From the IMG/VR virus record IMGVR_UViG_3300032011_002077, positions 1-26,138 of that record: a stretch of 26,138 nt of DNA. One strand, given 5' to 3'. The notes under the pieces were generated by a model. That model was given only the letters and a program-made list of their open reading frames with translations. It did not search any database and was not told the DNA's origin. Positions 1,730 through 26,138 of this stretch are shown here, piece by piece. The first letter of the stretch is position 1; every line of letters begins with the position of its first letter. The translations under genes were made by a program, and so were the position numbers. This stretch comes from a virus.

Positions 1730-2950
1730 ATGAAAAAACTATTATTTGCTTTATTGCTAGAAGGTATATCGCTAGGTATTGCTCCCGTATATGCAGATCA
1801 AACAGGAGATTGTACCGCAGGGGACCAGTATTGCGAACAAAACTCGATGAATACTACATCGACTGCGACTACAACCAATACAAATACCAACACCAATACC
1901 AACACTAACACCAATACCAACACTAACACCAATACAAACAACAATACCAATACGACTACAACAACTTCTACTGGTACAAACACCAATACAAACAACAACA
2001 CCAACAACAACACCAATACTAATACCAGCACGTCAACTGGTACTAACACCAACACCAATACAAATAACAACACCAATAGCAGTACGTCTACTACGACGGG
2101 CACAAACACAAACACTAATAACAACACCAACACGTCGACTAATACTAATAACAATACCAACACATCGACTAATACAAACAACAACACGAATACTAGTACG
2201 TCTACAAACACAAACAATAATACAAATACTAGTACGTCAACCAACAACAACACAAACACAAACAATAATACAAATACTAGTACGTCAAACAATACGAACA
2301 ACAATAACAATACTTCGACGAGCACTAGTAACAATACAAACACAAACAACAATAACAATACTTCTGACAACACTAATACTAACTACAATGAGTCCAATTC
2401 AAACTCGAATGTAAGTACTAACAACAAGAACGAAAACACCAGCACTTCTGATAACACTAATAGAAACATTAATGAATCGAAGTCTGAGCAAACAATTAAT
2501 CAGAACATCACTACTAAAGCCCCACCAGCCTCCGCAATCGCCCCTAGTATAATGAGTTATAGCCAAGACCTTTGCACAACAGGAGTAAGTGGTGCTTTTC
2601 AGGGCCAAATCTTTGGGCTCAGTGGGGGTAAGGCGGTTAGAGATGAAAACTGCGAGCGGTTAAAGCTCTCTAAATATCTTTATGATACAGGCATGAAAGT
2701 CGCCGCAGTTGGAATCTTATGCCAAGATATAAGAGTGTTCCGTGCAATGTATATGGCAGGCACTCCTTGCCCATACCAAGGTAAGATAGGAAAAGAAGCT
2801 CAAGCATCTTGGGATGCAAACCCTAAAGACCGACCTGATTACATAGAAGCAAAAGCAAGCTACGTTGCTAAATGTATTAGAACTGAAAATTCATCTGGAC
2901 AGAATAAGTCAAGGCTAACGTGTAAGCGTGAATTTGATAAGGGCAGCTAG
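1730..2950 (+). CDS. Exported Asn-Thr repeat protein with conserved C-terminal domain
   Basis: The 406-residue product has three parts. Residues 1-22 (MKKLLFALLLEGISLGIAPVYA) form a signal peptide. Residues about 40-250 are almost only Asn, Thr and Ser in NTN-type repeats. Residues about 270-406 form a folded domain with conserved-looking Cys and basic residues (SYSQDLCTTG, ENCERLKLSKYLYDTGMKVAA, LCQDIRVFRAMYMAGTPCPY). I recall similar C-terminal domains in marine phage genomes without a known function. No strong ribosome binding site sits directly before the ATG: the nearest purine run, GGAAG, is about 20 bases upstream and better placed for an out-of-frame ATG at 1714. The in-frame TGA just upstream leaves 1730 as the only start. 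It overlaps the next exported gene by 23 bases. The repeat may be a flexible stalk or glycosylation-rich spacer, which is inference. Confidence 0.8.
   Translation: MKKLLFALLLEGISLGIAPVYADQTGDCTAGDQYCEQNSMNTTSTATTTNTNTNTNTNTNTNTNTNTNTNNNTNTTTTTSTGTNTNTNNNTNNNTNTNTSTSTGTNTNTNTNNNTNSSTSTTTGTNTNTNNNTNTSTNTNNNTNTSTNTNNNTNTSTSTNTNNNTNTSTSTNNNTNTNNNTNTSTSNNTNNNNNTSTSTSNNTNTNNNNNTSDNTNTNYNESNSNSNVSTNNKNENTSTSDNTNRNINESKSEQTINQNITTKAPPASAIAPSIMSYSQDLCTTGVSGAFQGQIFGLSGGKAVRDENCERLKLSKYLYDTGMKVAAVGILCQDIRVFRAMYMAGTPCPYQGKIGKEAQASWDANPKDRPDYIEAKASYVAKCIRTENSSGQNKSRLTCKREFDKGS
1853..2395 (+). repeat. Asn-Thr (NTN) coding repeat tract
   Basis: About 540 bases coding for nearly pure Asn/Thr/Ser in units of NTN, NNTN and TSTN. 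Codons vary freely (aacacc, aatacc, aataca, aacact), so the tract is conserved as amino-acid composition rather than as an exact DNA repeat. Longer local units also recur, such as AATACTAGTACGTC at about 2188, 2227 and 2272. The extreme composition produces a long open frame on the opposite strand that I do not accept as a gene. Confidence 0.85.
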
Positions 2951-5330
2951 TTTATTTGTACTTTTATTTGCCTCTACCGTTAATGCAACTTATGTATACG
3001 AGGCAAATCAAAATCTTATTGACTTAAAAACAAACTATATAGCTACTTCTTACAACCTAGGTGCTGGAGATGATCAGGTCTCAAGTGTTTTTAATTTAGA
3101 CTTTACTTTTACTTTTTATGGACAAGATTTTACATCTGCTCGAATGGCAACCAATGGCTGTTTACACTTTGGGTCGACAGGAGGTTATTGTAACGACTAC
3201 ACACCTGATCCACTACCTGAAATTACATACACCCTATATCCTTTCTGGACTGATTTAATACGAGATAATGGCTCAAAGGTTCTAGCCAGAAACTTTACCG
3301 ACAAGTCTGTTTTTGGTTGGTACAACCTACGAGAATACAATCGAGGCAACACTGATAATTCTTTTGAAGTAATACTCTGGAAGTCAGACGATAGCTTTGA
3401 GTTTAGATACGGCGGGCTGGATATAATAAACCACGACGTATTGATAGGGGAACAAGGCACATCAGGGCAAACTTACACTTATTTGTTTCATGATCAGTGT
3501 GGTAAAGGAACAACGAATGCGGCAGGAACTTGTGTAAATACTACTTGGAATGCTAGCTCTTTTAATACATTATTAGAGAACGGTGGTAGTTTATATGGAG
3601 TCGGTTCCGGCAATGGATTAGACTGCAGTAACCCTTTAAACAATACCGCCTGTTCAGGATATGACGCAGCTTATTTAACGCAACAGTGTGATTTAGATGG
3701 ATTATATTCTACTCAGTGTCCTAACTATTGGGATGATTTATTCGACTATGAGTGTTCGTACGACTCGCAGCATTCGCCTGCGTGTCCGGGATATATGGTC
3801 GAAACTTTTGAACAAGATACCTATTATGAAGAAAGCATGTATGGTTATGACGACCATGAAGAAGACATGTATGGATATGAAGACTCGTATTATGAAGAAG
3901 ATTATGGCTATGAAGAAGAGCTTATATATACTGCTGAGTTCCAAGGGTTAGAGCACTACTACGAAGAAGAAGTTTATTACGAAGAAGATCTTTATCTTGA
4001 AGAGACAATATACTTTGAAGAAGAATACTTTGACTTGTTTGAAGAAGAATACTTTGAGCCGCACGAAGAATACTTTGAGCCTTTTGTAGAAGAGTTTCTT
4101 GAAGAAGAGTATATTCCTTTAAGTTATATAGAAGAAGAAACTTATATAGAACAGATATATGAAGAAATATTATTAGTAGATGAATATTATGAAACCGACT
4201 ATGACCTACCTATATTAGAAGATTTCTTATTAGATCATTTTGAACATGAAGAACATCTTGAAGAGTTTATTGAAGAAGAACCAACAGAGTTTTTAGAATT
4301 TGAAACCATAGAAGAATTAGAGGAGTGGATTGAGAGTGAAGAAAGTGAAGAACTGCTTGAGGAACTTGCAGATGCAAATGAGGAAGAAGTTCGAGAACTG
4401 GAGGATGCGGAGGCAATTGAAGAAGAGAGCCAAGACAGAGAAGAAAATCTCGAAATTGCTGTCGCAGAGAACGAAGATAAGAAAAACAATAAAAGGGCAG
4501 AGCAACTAAATGTTGTAGCTAACACCATTCGAGCCGCAAGTAATAGTGTTAGTGGTACTACTTCTGGAACATCAACGCACGCTACAGGAACTTCAGCTGC
4601 TGCTGGCGGTGTGTCAGTTAGTTCTCAAGGTTCAGGTGTAAGTTCCTCTGTTTCTGGAGGTACGGTAAGTATAGACAGTTCGCCCAGTATCTCTGCTCAA
4701 GTTGCGAGTTCCGCAGCTCAAACTCAACAGATTCTTACAGAAGTAATGAGCCCTACAACAACCGGTAATGTTGGTATAGGCAATGTAACTGCGGACACTA
4801 CAAGTGGGGCCCTGGCTAGTAATGAAACAAGTGTTGACAGTACAAGCGGGGCCCCAGGAAGTAATGAAGTAAGTGTTGACAGTTCATCTACGGTCGTTGC
4901 TGGTAATAACACTACAACAAACGACGTAATGAACACGACGGTACAGTCTTCTGGTGTAAGTGTACAGACACAATCTGTAGAATCACAGATAGAGACTGCA
5001 GTAGCTGATGTAGGTACTACAACAGATACGGACCAGCTTGTTGCACAAATTGTGGCCAATAATGTAAAAGTACAGCAAGAAGAAATGGAAGAACAACAAG
5101 CGGAAACAGGCGAGTATGCAGACTCTAGTGCGTTAATAGGGTTCATGGCTTACGTACCGGGGTTCACGGCCTACCGGCAAGTAGATATACCAGATCAAAC
5201 AATGTGGTACCAACCTAAAGAAATTTATAGTAATATATCCATAACAGATAATAATGCTGCATTCCTTGGAATGTATTCAGCGAATCTGCAAGGAATTAAT
5301 AGTTTAAAACAAATGCAACCCAATTTATAA
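2928..5330 (+). CDS. Large exported protein: nidogen-like domain plus Tyr/Glu-rich stalk
   Basis: The 800-residue product starts at GTG inside the previous gene and has a clean signal peptide (MNLIRAASLFVLLFASTVNA, residues 1-20). Residues about 35-195 resemble an extracellular NIDO-type domain: FTFTFYGQDFTSARMATNG, PFWTDLI, FEVILWKSDDSFEFRYGG. A Cys-containing linker (about 230-295) follows. Residues about 296-510 are dominated by Tyr, Glu and Asp (EEEYFDLFEEEYF). Residues 530-700 are Ser/Thr/Gly/Val-rich. The last 60 residues form a separate conserved-looking end (SALIGFMAYVPGFTAYRQ, MWYQPKEIYSN, YSANLQGINSLKQMQPNL). The pairing with the NTN protein and the adjacent membrane genes suggests secretion into the envelope or attachment at the cell surface, possibly in adsorption, exclusion or lysis. 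The function is unknown. It is long for a phage accessory gene and highly acidic. Confidence 0.8.
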   Translation: MNLIRAASLFVLLFASTVNATYVYEANQNLIDLKTNYIATSYNLGAGDDQVSSVFNLDFTFTFYGQDFTSARMATNGCLHFGSTGGYCNDYTPDPLPEITYTLYPFWTDLIRDNGSKVLARNFTDKSVFGWYNLREYNRGNTDNSFEVILWKSDDSFEFRYGGLDIINHDVLIGEQGTSGQTYTYLFHDQCGKGTTNAAGTCVNTTWNASSFNTLLENGGSLYGVGSGNGLDCSNPLNNTACSGYDAAYLTQQCDLDGLYSTQCPNYWDDLFDYECSYDSQHSPACPGYMVETFEQDTYYEESMYGYDDHEEDMYGYEDSYYEEDYGYEEELIYTAEFQGLEHYYEEEVYYEEDLYLEETIYFEEEYFDLFEEEYFEPHEEYFEPFVEEFLEEEYIPLSYIEEETYIEQIYEEILLVDEYYETDYDLPILEDFLLDHFEHEEHLEEFIEEEPTEFLEFETIEELEEWIESEESEELLEELADANEEEVRELEDAEAIEEESQDREENLEIAVAENEDKKNNKRAEQLNVVANTIRAASNSVSGTTSGTSTHATGTSAAAGGVSVSSQGSGVSSSVSGGTVSIDSSPSISAQVASSAAQTQQILTEVMSPTTTGNVGIGNVTADTTSGALASNETSVDSTSGAPGSNEVSVDSSSTVVAGNNTTTNDVMNTTVQSSGVSVQTQSVESQIETAVADVGTTTDTDQLVAQIVANNVKVQQEEMEEQQAETGEYADSSALIGFMAYVPGFTAYRQVDIPDQTMWYQPKEIYSNISITDNNAAFLGMYSANLQGINSLKQMQPNL
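3815..4460 (+). repeat. Tyr/Glu-rich low-complexity segment within the exported gene
   Basis: GAAGAAGA and TATGAAGAAG words recur for about 650 bases and encode YEE, EEEYF and later pure acidic helices (SEESEELLEELADANEEE). The first part alternates aromatic and acidic residues; the later part looks like an acidic coiled coil. The low complexity creates several spurious frames on both strands. Confidence 0.8.
4800..4883 (+). repeat. Tandem 42-base repeat, two copies
   Basis: Copies at 4800-4841 and 4842-4883 differ at a few positions and encode TSGALASNETSVDS and TSGAPGSNEVSVDS. The repeat is in frame and lies in the Ser/Thr-rich part of the exported protein, consistent with recent in-frame expansion. 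Confidence 0.85.
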
Positions 5331-7476: not shown

Positions 7477-7875
7477 TTATGTACCCTTATTTAAACATAT
7501 ATTAGATATTATATGCACAAAGTCCTTTACATGTACAGCTTTCTCTTCGAACTCTTGTATGGAAAAACTCGCTTTGTCAAACTCTTTTGTAACCAAAACT
7601 TGATTACCGATACCCATAACGGCATATACAGGAAGACCAAAAGTATGTTGTTTAGTAAGCCAATCACGTTGTTGTTGAGATAAATTAAATTTAATTAAAG
7701 TTGTTGAACGAACAGGGAGTTTGTTTTTGTATTTATATTCCATAAAACAAAAACCATTAGGGCCAGAGTAAAAGCAGTCAGGAACACCTCCGTGATACGG
7801 ATCATTGATCTTCCACTTATATATTTCTTTAGGTAAAAGTCGGTGTACTTTAGAAATAAATTTATGTTCTGTCAT
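7477..7875 (-). CDS. VRR-NUC-like PD-(D/E)xK nuclease
   Basis: The 132-residue product is close to the usual length of stand-alone phage VRR-NUC or Holliday-junction-type nucleases. Catalytic motifs are visible: G30-V31-P32-D33, then MEYKYK with E46 and K48, followed by a Gln-rich helix LSQQQRDWL (67-73) and the strand GLPVYAVMGIG. This is the PD-(D/E)xK arrangement with a D and an ExK about 13 residues apart. It likely cleaves branched or structured DNA in replication or recombination. Its start is overlapped by a small upstream gene and it lies within the replication operon, two bases before the DUF3310 gene. Confidence 0.8.
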   Translation of the reverse strand: MTEHKFISKVHRLLPKEIYKWKINDPYHGGVPDCFYSGPNGFCFMEYKYKNKLPVRSTTLIKFNLSQQQRDWLTKQHTFGLPVYAVMGIGNQVLVTKEFDKASFSIQEFEEKAVHVKDFVHIISNICLNKGT

Positions 7876-20207: not shown

Positions 20208-20383
20208 AATAATCTCCATATTAAATATATTGTTACACTTATAGCGGCTACGATGCCCGCCATAGCAAACATATGATGTATGCTAGCGGCAAGAGCACCG
20301 AAACCAAGAAGAATTACTAGTCCAGTTAAAGCTGAGACAGAGTATTCCTTCACTAATTTTTTACATTTTGATAATTTCACCAT
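20204..20383 (-). CDS. 59-residue two-helix membrane protein
   Basis: Start set at MVKLSKCKKLVKEYS (20383) with AGAGGAGG before it; it begins 23 bases before the end of the VWA gene. Two membrane segments are seen: VSALTGLVILLGFGALAAS and MFAMAGIVAAISVTIYLIW. Ends by ATGA overlap with the next small gene. Its overlap with the VWA gene suggests it works with that protein, possibly as its membrane anchor or target (inference). Confidence 0.65.
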   Translation of the reverse strand: MVKLSKCKKLVKEYSVSALTGLVILLGFGALAASIHHMFAMAGIVAAISVTIYLIWRLL

Positions 20384-21497
20384 ATGGCGCCTCCTCTGCA
20401 CAAGTGGTTACCCATAAAACTGGAAAAGGCGGTTCGTCTCCGAAGTCGCTTGACTCTAAGTCGGTAAGATAGACGGCGGCTTTAACATTAGGGCAATGTT
20501 CCTTAATATAATCAAAAGCGGGATAGAACATAGTTCCACCACGACCTTTGTAAGTAACTTTAAGGGGTAAATCCTCACGGCTGTACTTGGTATATTCATT
20601 TACTTCAGTGTCACACTGTATGAAATGCACACTTTCAGGATTAAGATCATGAAGTATTGCAGTGGTTTCACTTGTAAATTGTTGTAGCTCATCGTCACTG
20701 ACTGAGCCAGAGGTGTCAACAATTACAGCTATCTCTTCCAGGGCGGGTGTATGTAGAGATGGCAGATATAGTCCTTGAGCAATAAATCTACGATTAGGTC
20801 TAATCCATGTAAAGTCAGATTTATTATTGGATCTAAAGAACCTAGCAAGAACACCACGCCAGTCGACTTTGGGTTCTAACACATCAGCTACTAAAGATTC
20901 TAGATTGCCAGATAATTTACCAGCTGTACGTGCGGCCTCGGCTGCTTGTTGTATTGCAACATGAAAATCAGCTTCTACAGCACCTGATACGTCTTGTCCT
21001 TGTGTCATAGAAGGATGATCCATTACACCACCACAGCCACCTGGGTCGTTGTGTCCTTTTAACAGCACACCAAATCCACCTTTTTCTTCACCTAAGTCAT
21101 CAGGTAATATGCTATATATTTCTTCTGTAGACATAGGTTTGGGGTTGTCGTATTTGTCATCAATAAGCTCTGTTTCTGGAAGAATAAATCCTTCTTTTAT
21201 AAGTGTATTGTTAATACGATAGTCGGCAGCAATGTTCCATTTGTGTCCGTCACGTTGATTACGACGTAACATATGCAGCAAAGCAACATGCATTACTTCG
21301 TGGGCTACGAAACCTGTTTGTTGCACAGGTTTTAGTCTGTCAAACCACTTAGGGTTTACCAACAGTTCTACGCCGTCGGTAGCACCAGTGGGAACTTCGT
21401 CGGTTAATTTGACCTTTAATCTTAGCGCCAAAGTGCCGAAGAATGGGTGGTCTAATAATAATCGACTACGTGCTTTTGTTATTTGTTCATGGCTCAT
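20361..21497 (-). CDS. DUF2201-like protein: HExxH metallopeptidase-like plus VWA domain
   Basis: The 378-residue product starts MSHEQITKARSRLLLDHP. A zinc-type motif AHEVMHVALLH (H66, E67, H70) with a following NIAADYRIN (D92) marks the metallopeptidase-like part. The C-terminal half is a von Willebrand A domain with an intact MIDAS: VIVDTSGSVSDDEL (D261, S263, S265), later YKGRGGTMF and VYLTDLES. This two-part layout is typical of DUF2201 proteins, which travel with MoxR-type AAA+ ATPases as here (23091-24134). In such systems the ATPase remodels a partner or activates the VWA protein. The phage substrate is unknown; the adjacent tiny membrane proteins are candidates. Confidence 0.88.
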   Translation of the reverse strand: MSHEQITKARSRLLLDHPFFGTLALRLKVKLTDEVPTGATDGVELLVNPKWFDRLKPVQQTGFVAHEVMHVALLHMLRRNQRDGHKWNIAADYRINNTLIKEGFILPETELIDDKYDNPKPMSTEEIYSILPDDLGEEKGGFGVLLKGHNDPGGCGGVMDHPSMTQGQDVSGAVEADFHVAIQQAAEAARTAGKLSGNLESLVADVLEPKVDWRGVLARFFRSNNKSDFTWIRPNRRFIAQGLYLPSLHTPALEEIAVIVDTSGSVSDDELQQFTSETTAILHDLNPESVHFIQCDTEVNEYTKYSREDLPLKVTYKGRGGTMFYPAFDYIKEHCPNVKAAVYLTDLESSDFGDEPPFPVLWVTTCAEEAPYGEIIKM

Positions 21498-23090: not shown

Positions 23091-24134
23091 TTATAAGATT
23101 ACATTTGAATTATCAATGATCCACTTTTGTATAGGTGGTGAATCAATAATAGGTTTATAGTTTGGACTTGAGCTAGCCCTAGCTTTGTCATGCTGTATTG
23201 ACTGTTTAACAAGCACCACTTGATACTCGGTTTCTAGCTTGTTGCAAATACGCATAACATTAGCCACCTTGTCTTCGGTTGCTCTAGATGCTAACGCACC
23301 TGTAAGAGCATACAAGATAGCTGGATCTGAATCGTGTTTGTATTTGTGTGGATTCTCGATCAAATTGTCAATGTCAGGTAGTGAGTCAGCAATTTTTCTA
23401 AATGCTACATACTCACCTGCTGGGCCATCGCCAACTAATGCTGATACACCGTAAAACAGTGTTTCCTCATTATTGTTTATCTTCAACTTCTTATCCACTA
23501 ACGACCAGCTCCTAGGAGTAGGAAAAGAGTAGTGGTCTGCGTCAAATGAATACAACAGCCCAGGGCGATATCTCATAAATGAGATAAGCGAATCGCTAAT
23601 GCCTTTTCCAATAGCCCACTCACACCAGTCATCTACATTTGGCTCTAACTCATAATGAGCAAGCCTGTTTCTGACGGGGGATGGCATTTGATAGACAGCA
23701 GCAGAATCGGTAAGTCGGTTACCTGCAGCTATTATAGACCAGCCATGCGGTAGATGATAATCCCCAACCTTTCTGGTTAATAACAACTGCAAGAACGCGT
23801 TTTGTGTCGCGGGCGGCGCTGTAGGTAATTCGTCAATGAAGAATAAACCACGCTCACCATCCCGCTCTACAATTGGAAATACATCTGGGACAGCCCACGA
23901 TGTAAAATATTTGTCTTGGTCTTTGACTTTGACTACACGCGGCACGCCACGTACGTCAACAGGGTCAAACAAGTTTGCACGAAACTCTAATAAGTTTTGT
24001 TTTAAACTTTTTGCAACTTGATATGGTATTTCTGATTTGCCGATACCTGGACCACCCCATATCATGGTGTTAAGTCCGGCACGCATATTACTTACAATCT
24101 CTGGAAAGAGATGTTTGGGACGTATTTGGTGCAT
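23091..24134 (-). CDS. MoxR-type AAA+ ATPase
   Basis: The 347-residue product has GGPGIGKS (Walker A, 27-34), a long insert FDPVDVRGVPRVVKVKD, Walker B LFFIDELP (D101, E102), sensor 1 IIAAGNR (N139) and PSPVRNRL with arginine fingers near R155-R157. FIDELP and the helix-2 insert are typical of MoxR or CobS-like ATPases. Such ATPases pair with VWA-domain proteins as chaperones that assemble or activate metal-dependent or membrane systems; the VWA partner is at 20361-21497. In a phage the purpose is unknown. AGGAG precedes the ATG at 24134. Confidence 0.88.
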   Translation of the reverse strand: MHQIRPKHLFPEIVSNMRAGLNTMIWGGPGIGKSEIPYQVAKSLKQNLLEFRANLFDPVDVRGVPRVVKVKDQDKYFTSWAVPDVFPIVERDGERGLFFIDELPTAPPATQNAFLQLLLTRKVGDYHLPHGWSIIAAGNRLTDSAAVYQMPSPVRNRLAHYELEPNVDDWCEWAIGKGISDSLISFMRYRPGLLYSFDADHYSFPTPRSWSLVDKKLKINNNEETLFYGVSALVGDGPAGEYVAFRKIADSLPDIDNLIENPHKYKHDSDPAILYALTGALASRATEDKVANVMRICNKLETEYQVVLVKQSIQHDKARASSSPNYKPIIDSPPIQKWIIDNSNVIL

Positions 24135-24428: not shown

Positions 24429-25160
24429 TTACGCATTGTCATACATTGCTTTAGCTGTCTCATTAGTAATAGACTTACTAGTGATTTTTCCAGACTTATC
24501 AGCATGTTGGTTGTAATTCCACTCAGCTAAACGCTGTAAACGATTCTCAACTGCTTGTTGGACTCTAAAACGATTGATCTCAACATCTTTAAGACCAAAC
24601 TTGTCATCCATTTTGTTAAGAAAAGCTGATAACATTCTAGCTTTACGACCGAGCTGAACCATTTTGTCTTCTCTATCGATAAGCCAATCTGGTATCTCCT
24701 GATCTTCTTTAATGGTGCTAATTGAATCTTTATACTCAAAAGCAACACTAGCGAACTCAGCCCAAGTCCTAGTACCTAGCTGTAATGCATTGATACCAGT
24801 TGTTTGTGGATCAACTTCCAATAGTTGACTGAAGCCGTCAACGACTTGTTCAACTTGGCTGTTGAAGTATTTTTCAGCTTTGTCGTCACTGTGCGGTTGC
24901 TCAGTGCCATACTTAGCATCAAAGACTGTCATAATTTCAGATACAACTACTTCGTTGTAGGTAGGATTACCTGCATCGTCTAGTTTATATCTGCGGAAGA
25001 AAAAGTCAGGAAGGACGATTGCCACTTCTTTAGCTCTTTCTTCACTGCCTTCAGGATCACCATTCGTATCTGCACGATATGCAGACTCAGGTGTTTCGTT
25101 TGAAGGGGTTAGTTCTACCGTCTCTAATTCCGACGGGTCAAAATGATCTACATTAGCCAT
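24429..25160 (-). CDS. Unknown acidic protein
   Basis: Start chosen at MANVDHFDPSELETV (25160), with GAGGAGAT before it; the frame extends upstream without a better signal. The 243-residue product is acidic at the N-terminus (ELETVELTPSNETPESAYRA) and helical in the second half (LGRKARMLSAFLNKMDDKFG, INRFRVQQAVENRLQRLAEW). No known motif. It precedes the structured region and the ATPase. I recall comparable acidic helical proteins ahead of MoxR genes in marine phages, but that memory is too weak for a claim. Confidence 0.65.
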   Translation of the reverse strand: MANVDHFDPSELETVELTPSNETPESAYRADTNGDPEGSEERAKEVAIVLPDFFFRRYKLDDAGNPTYNEVVVSEIMTVFDAKYGTEQPHSDDKAEKYFNSQVEQVVDGFSQLLEVDPQTTGINALQLGTRTWAEFASVAFEYKDSISTIKEDQEIPDWLIDREDKMVQLGRKARMLSAFLNKMDDKFGLKDVEINRFRVQQAVENRLQRLAEWNYNQHADKSGKITSKSITNETAKAMYDNA

Positions 25161-25226: not shown

Positions 25227-25430
25227 TTAGAATTTAAGCAGTTTAAATTTGTTGCCATACTTTCGTTTATTTATACCTTTCCAGCTTAGCTCTTTACGCC
25301 GGCTGTAACTTAAGCTACTCCAATGTCTGAGTGCCATCGCGCTAGGTATGCCATAACGAATACGGTCTCGTTCATCCTCATGTTGATGAAACAAGTCATC
25401 AAGGATGTGTTGTGGTAAGTCTATGTCCAT
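25227..25430 (-). CDS. Unknown small basic protein
   Basis: The 67-residue product starts MDIDLPQHILDDLFHQHEDE and ends in a basic stretch (RRKELSWKGINKRKYGNK). AGGGAC lies upstream. It has an acidic N-terminus and a basic C-terminus. A conserved hairpin (25474-25505) stands about 45 bases ahead, as it does for the gene at 26047, so both are probably controlled the same way. No family recognised. Confidence 0.6.
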   Translation of the reverse strand: MDIDLPQHILDDLFHQHEDERDRIRYGIPSAMALRHWSSLSYSRRKELSWKGINKRKYGNKFKLLKF

Positions 25431-25473
25431 AATTATGTCCCTATGTTTTATTAATTAAATTCATTTCTAAAGT

Positions 25474-25505
25474 ACAAACGGACTGTCCGTTAGGACAGCC
25501 GTATG
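25474..25505 (-). repeat. Leader hairpin element, copy 1
   Basis: A 10-base stem: ACGG (25478-25481), a bulged A, CTGTCC, loop GTTA, GGACAG, CCGT (25499-25502). The second copy at 26089-26120 keeps the loop and outer stem but has CTGTTC and GAACAG, a paired change that preserves base pairing. On the minus strand a U-rich run (TTTGTACTTT) follows the stem, like a terminator or attenuator. It is about 45 bases before the gene at 25430. Confidence 0.8.
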
Positions 25506-25578
25506 GAAAATTAACCACGATGTTAAAATCTAGCACGGCACAGTAATTCGCACACTTACAGGTGGTTTATACCCATGA

Positions 25579-25614
25579 AAAAAGCTACAGCCCCCGAAGG
25601 GGCCATAGCTTTTT
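25579..25614. terminator. Strong bidirectional intrinsic terminator (UUCG tetraloop on minus strand)
   Basis: AAAAAGCTA (25579-25587) pairs with TAGCTTTTT (25606-25614), and GCCCC with GGGGC around CGAA (TTCG on the minus strand), with a small internal loop. U-runs are present in both directions. It begins ten bases after the stop of the 25625-26047 gene and ends that transcript. Confidence 0.9.
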
Positions 25615-25624
25615 GGGGACTAAC

Positions 25625-26047
25625 TTATACTCCAGGTATTTGAACTTCTCTTGTTCCAAATGCTTCTGGAGAAGTATCAAGAGCATGATCACTAAACCAA
25701 TTAATAAGTTCTTGGTTGGTTATAACAACCAACGGAACTCTGATATAACCAGAATGAAAATACTCAACAACATCAGATACAACACCAGCTTCTTGCAAAG
25801 CTACTAACATGCCTTGGTTTTCGCTGTAATCTTTGATGTATACAGGTATTTGTTCATAACCAAAATGCTTGTCTATTAATGCTTGTGCATCATCATCAAT
25901 CATGTTGATTGTTGCAGTGGCTATTGGCTCACCGGTGTCAACTTCTTTTAGCGTAAGTGCTAAAGATCCGTTGTTTGTGTACTTAGTAGGTACAACTCTA
26001 CATAACCAAGACTTAAACAGTACTTGGGGAAAATTACGAATGTCCAT
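25625..26047 (-). CDS. DUF4313-like protein
   Basis: The 140-residue product reads MDIRNFPQVLFKSWLCRVV, then TNNGSLALTLKEVDTGEPI, ATATINMIDDDAQALID, VYIKDYSENQGMLVALQEAG and IRVPLVVITNQELINWF. The ALxLxxxxTGEPIATATxN and VxIKDxSENxGMLxALxxAG patterns match DUF4313-type proteins as I remember them; their role is unknown and they occur on mobile elements. It is a single-gene unit: a conserved hairpin about 46 bases upstream and a strong terminator downstream. AGGAGA precedes the ATG. Confidence 0.7.
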   Translation of the reverse strand: MDIRNFPQVLFKSWLCRVVPTKYTNNGSLALTLKEVDTGEPIATATINMIDDDAQALIDKHFGYEQIPVYIKDYSENQGMLVALQEAGVVSDVVEYFHSGYIRVPLVVITNQELINWFSDHALDTSPEAFGTREVQIPGV

Positions 26048-26088
26048 ATTCGTTCTCCTATATTAATTGTTAATAACACTCCAAAAGG

Positions 26089-26120
26089 ACAAACGGACTG
26101 TTCGTTAGAACAGCCGTACG
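26089..26120 (-). repeat. Leader hairpin element, copy 2
   Basis: The same element as 25474-25505: ACGG (26093-26096), A, CTGTTC, loop GTTA, GAACAG, CCGT (26114-26117). The inner stem has exchanged a C-G pair for U-A while the loop, bulge and outer stem are unchanged. It lies about 46 bases upstream of the gene starting at 26047. The shared sequence continues AC-AAACGG on one side and CCGTA on the other. Confidence 0.8.
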
Positions 26121-26138
26121 TGTACCATGACTACTGGT

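Follow-up and report, generated by a model that had tools for sequence, protein, structure and literature searches.

The leaders of two neighbouring early genes of this marine phage each carry a hairpin that represents a real, previously undescribed control element, since the stems of its counterparts in relatives differ and yet pair, and loops are common within a genome. By analogy with phage N4, we tentatively propose that these hairpins might act as DNA-level promoters of the early genes, a reading to which we give somewhat less than an even chance. A hairpin working at the RNA level in the leader is a close rival. Positions refer to the window, which is the whole 26,138-nt IMG/VR virus fragment that was analyzed.

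Twin hairpins upstream of two early genes

Direct reading of the sequence located two hairpins of 25 nt each on the minus strand (25478-25502 and 26093-26117, plus-strand letters ACGGACTGTCCGTTAGGACAGCCGT and ACGGACTGTTCGTTAGAACAGCCGT, respectively) at a spacing of 615 nt. On the gene strand both follow the consensus ACGG-CTGTYC-TAAC-GRACAG-(T)-CCGT, with a 10 bp stem, a UAAC loop and a single bulged T. The inner stems differ at one position only, where a C-G pair is replaced by U-A, confirming the first-pass annotation, which had described twin elements with common loop, bulge and outer stem and a compensated inner-stem change. The features of this region and the related genes are:

26120..26138, strand not assigned: beginning of an inverted repeat resembling an operator, GTGTACCA-N7-TGGT(ACAC); truncated here by the contig end but whole in L001
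26093..26117, minus: hairpin 2, ACGGCTGTTC-TAAC-GAACAG(T)CCGT; upstream of gene A
26068..26092, minus: stretch 3' of hairpin 2, TTGTCCTTTTGGAGTGTTATTAAC; conserved, common to the L003/L004 leaders
25625..26047, minus: gene A, 140 aa, MDIRNFP..., ATG at 26047; phrog_37545-like
25579..25614, minus: intrinsic terminator of gene A, AAAGCTATGGCCCC-TTCG-GGGGCTGTAGCTTTTTT; 76 nt before hairpin 1
25478..25502, minus: hairpin 1, ACGGCTGTCC-TAAC-GGACAG(T)CCGT; upstream of gene B
25449..25477, minus: stretch 3' of hairpin 1, TTGTACTTTAGAAATGAATTTAATTAATA; A+T-rich spacer up to the ribosome-binding site
25227..25430, minus: gene B, 67 aa, MDIDLPQ..., ATG at 25430
24429..25160, minus: gene C, 243 aa, MANVDHFDP...; family marker used for finding relatives
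23091..24134, minus: MoxR-type ATPase, homologue of N4 gp24 (phrog_1297)
20361..21497, minus: metallopeptidase-like/VWA protein (PF13203 and PF09967; phrog_1314), positioned as gp25 beside gp24 in N4

The hairpin core occurs twice in the window compared with 0 expected copies (100 shuffles), and a search of the 26-kb window for more copies found none besides these two. RNA folding yielded -15.4 and -13.0 kcal/mol (z -4.9 and -3.9). The distance to the start codon is 45-48 nt for both genes, each beginning MDI, which agrees with the roughly 45 bases noted earlier. An Rfam search for a curated RNA family gave no match, and a candidate pseudoknot between loop and leader (UAAC with GUUA) was dropped, as it was not conserved on inspection of the leaders. 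GTGTTATTAA is also found 3' of hairpins in several other lineages. Past hairpin 1, 20 of 21 leader bases (25456-25476) are antisense to the start of a gene beginning MTEHKFISKVH (window 7844-7864, plus strand), a match that may be due to chance.

The terminator of gene A had been omitted from the first-pass annotation. Since the gene B hairpin lies after it, a new start is expected there. A terminator precedes the gene B hairpin in the window, in L003/L004 and in a distant lineage with CGGTGG- and GCGAG-type stems, where the gap to the hairpin is only about 35-45 nt in L033/L055; in L005 and L013, gene A is without a clear terminator and the gene B hairpin is absent too. In L035, a tRNA gene with a CTA anticodon (812-885; amber-suppressor-like, Pyl by ARAGORN) is located between gene A and its terminator. 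A Pfam search with the early genes gave no match, and a structure model of gene A (pLDDT 58) was too weak for use. The DNA polymerase of the phage belongs to family A. Elsewhere, the window encodes two low-complexity proteins, one Asn/Thr-rich (1730-2950, 406 aa) and one Glu/Tyr-rich (2928-5330, 800 aa).

Stems diverge in relatives while pairing is kept

Profile searches with gene C returned up to 80 loci each, with loci overlapping between searches. Exact-pattern scans of IMG/VR detected a near-identical contig only, or chance matches, mostly coding, and a genome-contig scan with gene C found no relatives. L001 is nearly identical to the window and runs on past its contig end. There, a GTGTACC/GGTACAC repeat cluster (L001 8885-9330) lies between leftward replication genes and rightward endonuclease-terS genes; the equivalents between the divergent modules of L034, L041 and L072 carry TGTTCCA/TGGAACA or TGTAACA, a different word in the same layout; these may be operators or an origin.

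L003 and L004 harbor three hairpins each, ahead of an MNYIK-start gene, gene A and gene B. Their loops are UAAC, with one GAAC, on the stems ACGGCTGTCC, ACGGCTGACC and ACCATTGTTC, and the 3'-side bulge shifts (after pair 5, 2 or 6) or is missing. Just upstream of gene A, L003 (3239-3430), L004 and L005 (2838-3030) have a non-coding stretch of about 190 nt, strongly conserved and apparently structured, that is lacking in the window.

In the more distant relatives L032-L035, L041, L043 and L055 (about 54-57% identity in gene C), hairpins of the CGGTGG-CTAAC and GCGAG-YTAAC types occupy the two syntenic places. Two-sided changes were found in 6 of 11 pairs, and 84% of cells pair, compared with 26-38% when the partner is slid. 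Likewise, the stems' own arms pair in 93% and arms swapped between stem classes in 36%. Mean stem identity is 38% while the loop is constant, the set itself having been found via its UAAC loop. As MAFFT misaligned hairpins of different lineages, each family was modelled separately, and in 21 whole records the covariance models gave strong matches at early leaders only. The hairpin ends 41-52 nt before the ATG in 15 of the 21 cases listed. The search of genome and relatives and the covariance model proposed in the first-pass annotation have thus yielded counterparts that keep both pairing and gene-start position, with many two-sided stem changes, and its claim of selection for nucleic-acid structure is strongly supported. 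The single compensatory pair in the window is thin evidence alone; the relatives' family is decisive.

A strand-specific loop rule and a possible DNA-level promoter

For a wider survey, 148 overlapping loci were reduced to 56 distinct leader hairpins, with G.T and A.C treated alike. On the sense strand 23 loops were T..C and 1 was G..A, compared with 74:55 in controls (P=3e-6; Fisher 2e-8). The data that first suggested this rule overlap in part with those of the test, and perhaps 8 of the related lineages are independent. Template-strand GNA or GNNA loops were present in 21/56 leader hairpins versus 48/657 controls (P=3e-9), and the window loops read C.GTTA.G on that strand, whereas the RNA-stable loops GNRA, UNCG and CUUG accounted for 0/56. 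Mismatches of G.T and A.C stood at 4:5 in the T..C class and 13:2 in the other leaders, the latter as expected for RNA. The interruption of the stem, a bulge or a mismatch, is mostly single and 4-6 bp from the loop (17/21 irregularities in the T..C class). Loops of the d(cGNNAg) and d(GNA) kind are unusually stable in DNA, although a literature search returned no confirmation.

Loops are often common within a genome (UAAC and UAGC in L125, UUC in L072, UAACC in L104, and UCC in L076 and L098, three each by strand-symmetric count); other loops include CAAG in L109 and CAGUA in L013. Pairs with different stems within one genome had the same loop in 13 of 102 cases, versus a permutation mean of 4.2 and a maximum of 14 in 2000. 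A third lineage with twin leader hairpins is seen around L030 1662 and 4396 (L013/L014 copies), with GATC-CAGTA-GGTC in common and differing outer stems. In L063, L065, L067, L070, L071, L082 and L095 a second, proximal hairpin, mostly ..GATAC-GGGT-GTATC.., is found about 27 nt before a gene starting MYSLYIL.

In an N4 promoter the template loop must have 5'G and 3'A, which form a sheared pair, and must be closed by C:G, while other stem bases are free provided pairing is kept (PMC4496689). Since a sense T..C loop is a G..A loop on the template, the leader hairpins of the T..C class match the G..A part of this requirement for the N4 early-promoter hairpin. The DNA-hairpin promoter, a reading absent from the first-pass annotation, is favoured by the loop-strand asymmetry together with the N4 comparison, and the template loops and the equal share of G.T and A.C mismatches in the T..C class also make us lean towards it. 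The hairpins would then be transcription-start elements of the phage's first early units. The template strand may extrude into a short hairpin whose G..A loop is stable and which acts as early promoter; RNA would begin immediately 3' of this hairpin, about 40-50 nt ahead of the start codon. The listings for the hairpins of the window and of L003 contained no sigma-70 pair, and a -10 scan around the leader hairpins gave no positional peak.

The polymerase that would read these hairpins is presumably not a recognisable N4- or T7-type enzyme. Four near-complete relatives of 58-61 kb, which are sister lineages and not the window's own (the window being a fragment), were searched with a vRNAP profile, and nothing rose above noise, whereas a left-out divergent vRNAP scored 103 bits. 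The polymerase motif was found only in their DNA polymerase, and their giant virion protein did not align with vRNAP. A search with PF00940 (T7-type RNAP) gave no match, the control being equally silent. The lack of such enzymes in these relatives speaks against a DNA-level promoter, as do stems of 9-13 bp with a central bulge, which are longer than those of N4, R-Y instead of C-G closing pairs in the TYC-loop relatives, and the other loops of some relatives. Hairpin promoters without an encoded single-subunit polymerase would imply that the host RNA polymerase or an unrecognised virion polymerase must read the extruded hairpins. That a large podovirus-like marine phage clade uses template-strand DNA hairpins as early promoters with no recognisable encoded single-subunit RNA polymerase is an extension that we consider rather unlikely.

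Alternative explanations

It is quite possible, if short of our preferred reading, that transcripts of the early genes start at the stem or just ahead of it, and that the hairpin protects their 5' end or sets the translation and stability of each early unit. The position at the head of the unit, the kept pairing, a GC-rich stem in an A+T-rich leader (z to -4.7) and a single U.G wobble variant in L034 all agree with this. UNAC loops fold as a GNRA-like U-turn (PMC5311481), and the T4 gene 32 mRNA offers a precedent with its stabilising 5' CUUCGG hairpin (PMC8948821). Moreover, TATAAT is located 7 nt upstream of the L003b/L004b stem and is conserved where the sequence further upstream differs, which fits an RNA 5' end at the hairpin and counts against the DNA-level promoter. 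On the other hand, the T..C rule spans tri-, tetra- and pentaloops without a common known RNA fold, UUCG and GNRA loops are missing though the terminator of the same genome has TTCG, and the G.U bias is absent in the T..C class.

An RNA operator, in which a phage protein reads the loop and coordinates early-gene translation, is improbable. The hairpin recognised by T4/RB69 gp43 has a UAAC loop as well and lies about 40 nt ahead of gene 43 (PMC3014915), so loop and distance are the same, and the loop is common within genomes despite differing stems; however, the polymerase here is of family A, its gene is without such a leader, and no RNA-binding candidate was identified. As the hairpins precede unrelated genes, simple autoregulation is out.

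The first-pass annotation had read the hairpins as possible attenuators or antitermination sites, and we regard attenuation, termination or antitermination in the leader as very unlikely. The U-rich stretch that it noted 3' of the stems (TTTGTACTTT, TTTGTCCTTTT) is indeed present in the window, though interrupted, a boxA-like UGUCCUUUAGAA follows in the window set, and a scan flags the hairpins as weak terminators. The hairpins of the CGGTGG/GCGAG lineage, by contrast, have neither U-tract nor boxA-like motif. Antitermination by hairpin 2 would have to read through the strong terminator that ends the gene A unit, and after hairpin 1 the 18-kb operon contains 14 terminator-like sites versus 12.5 in shuffles, i.e. 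no excess. RNase III processing, likewise raised earlier, is unlikely on stems of about 10 bp. The protein-binding element that the first-pass annotation also listed may still apply.

A functionless leftover of a recent duplication, with the paired change arising by chance, would suit the likeness of the window copies beyond the hairpin (79% over 56 nt) but is hardly credible, being contradicted by many relatives in which position and pairing are conserved and stems have diverged.

Comparison with known systems

Intrinsic terminators and attenuators differ in the U-tract directly after the hairpin, interrupted in the window set and absent in the CGGTGG/GCGAG set. The intergenic CUUCGG hairpins of T4 resemble the present ones in their fixed loop, variable stems and occurrence in intergenic phage regions, but they have a UUCG loop and are abundant in T4-type genomes (cited in PMC8948821), whereas UAAC/UYC loops in early leaders only are found here. 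The gene 43 operator of T4/RB69 likewise consists of a hairpin with a UAAC loop some 40 nt ahead of a start codon, but it is single and precedes a family-B polymerase gene; here several hairpins stand before unrelated genes, the polymerase is of family A, and covariance-model matches lie only upstream of early genes, not of the polymerase gene. With the ESAS/SAS elements of Cluster K mycobacteriophages and Cluster EF Microbacterium phages the hairpins have in common that lineage-specific repeats occur upstream of several start codons, and the Cluster K ESAS are also inverted repeats. Those, however, have an arm consensus with a variable spacer, in contrast to the common loop with variable arms here, and their 17-bp inverted repeats stand beside a 13-bp SAS, whereas no SAS was seen at the ribosome-binding site in the leaders read.

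The closest parallel is with N4. A scan of the genome of this member of the Schitoviridae located a TTC-loop hairpin ahead of gp1 and TCC-loop hairpins ahead of gp2 and gp15, presumably the early promoters P1-P3 of its virion RNAP; for two of these three the distance to the ATG is 51 and 40 nt, compared with 41-52 nt for the leaders here. In both cases inverted repeats precede early genes and stem bases vary while pairing is kept, and TTC/TCC sense loops (template G-R-A) recur in the relatives. The N4 template-loop rule (5'G, 3'A, C:G closing) holds in the window, and the relatives are enriched for G..A with a varying closing pair. The phages also share a gp24-type ATPase adjoining a gp25-type VWA gene with N4, and their portal family cross-matches that of N4 while the head protein family differs. 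N4 hairpins have a 5-7 bp stem and a 3-nt loop, in contrast to 10 bp with a bulge and the 4-nt loop UAAC (template GTTA) in the window, and N4 encodes its cognate virion RNA polymerase, which was not found in the four 58-61 kb relatives; we therefore do not assign the element to the N4 vRNAP system, although it may work like it. In that system, RNA synthesis begins 3' of the hairpin and depends on gyrase. As far as we know, promoters of this type have been described essentially in N4-like phages, which possess a giant virion polymerase. An N4-like loop rule without the N4 polymerase would, if true, part the promoter type from its enzyme; alternatively, it would reveal a second code, in RNA or DNA, for the early genes of phages.
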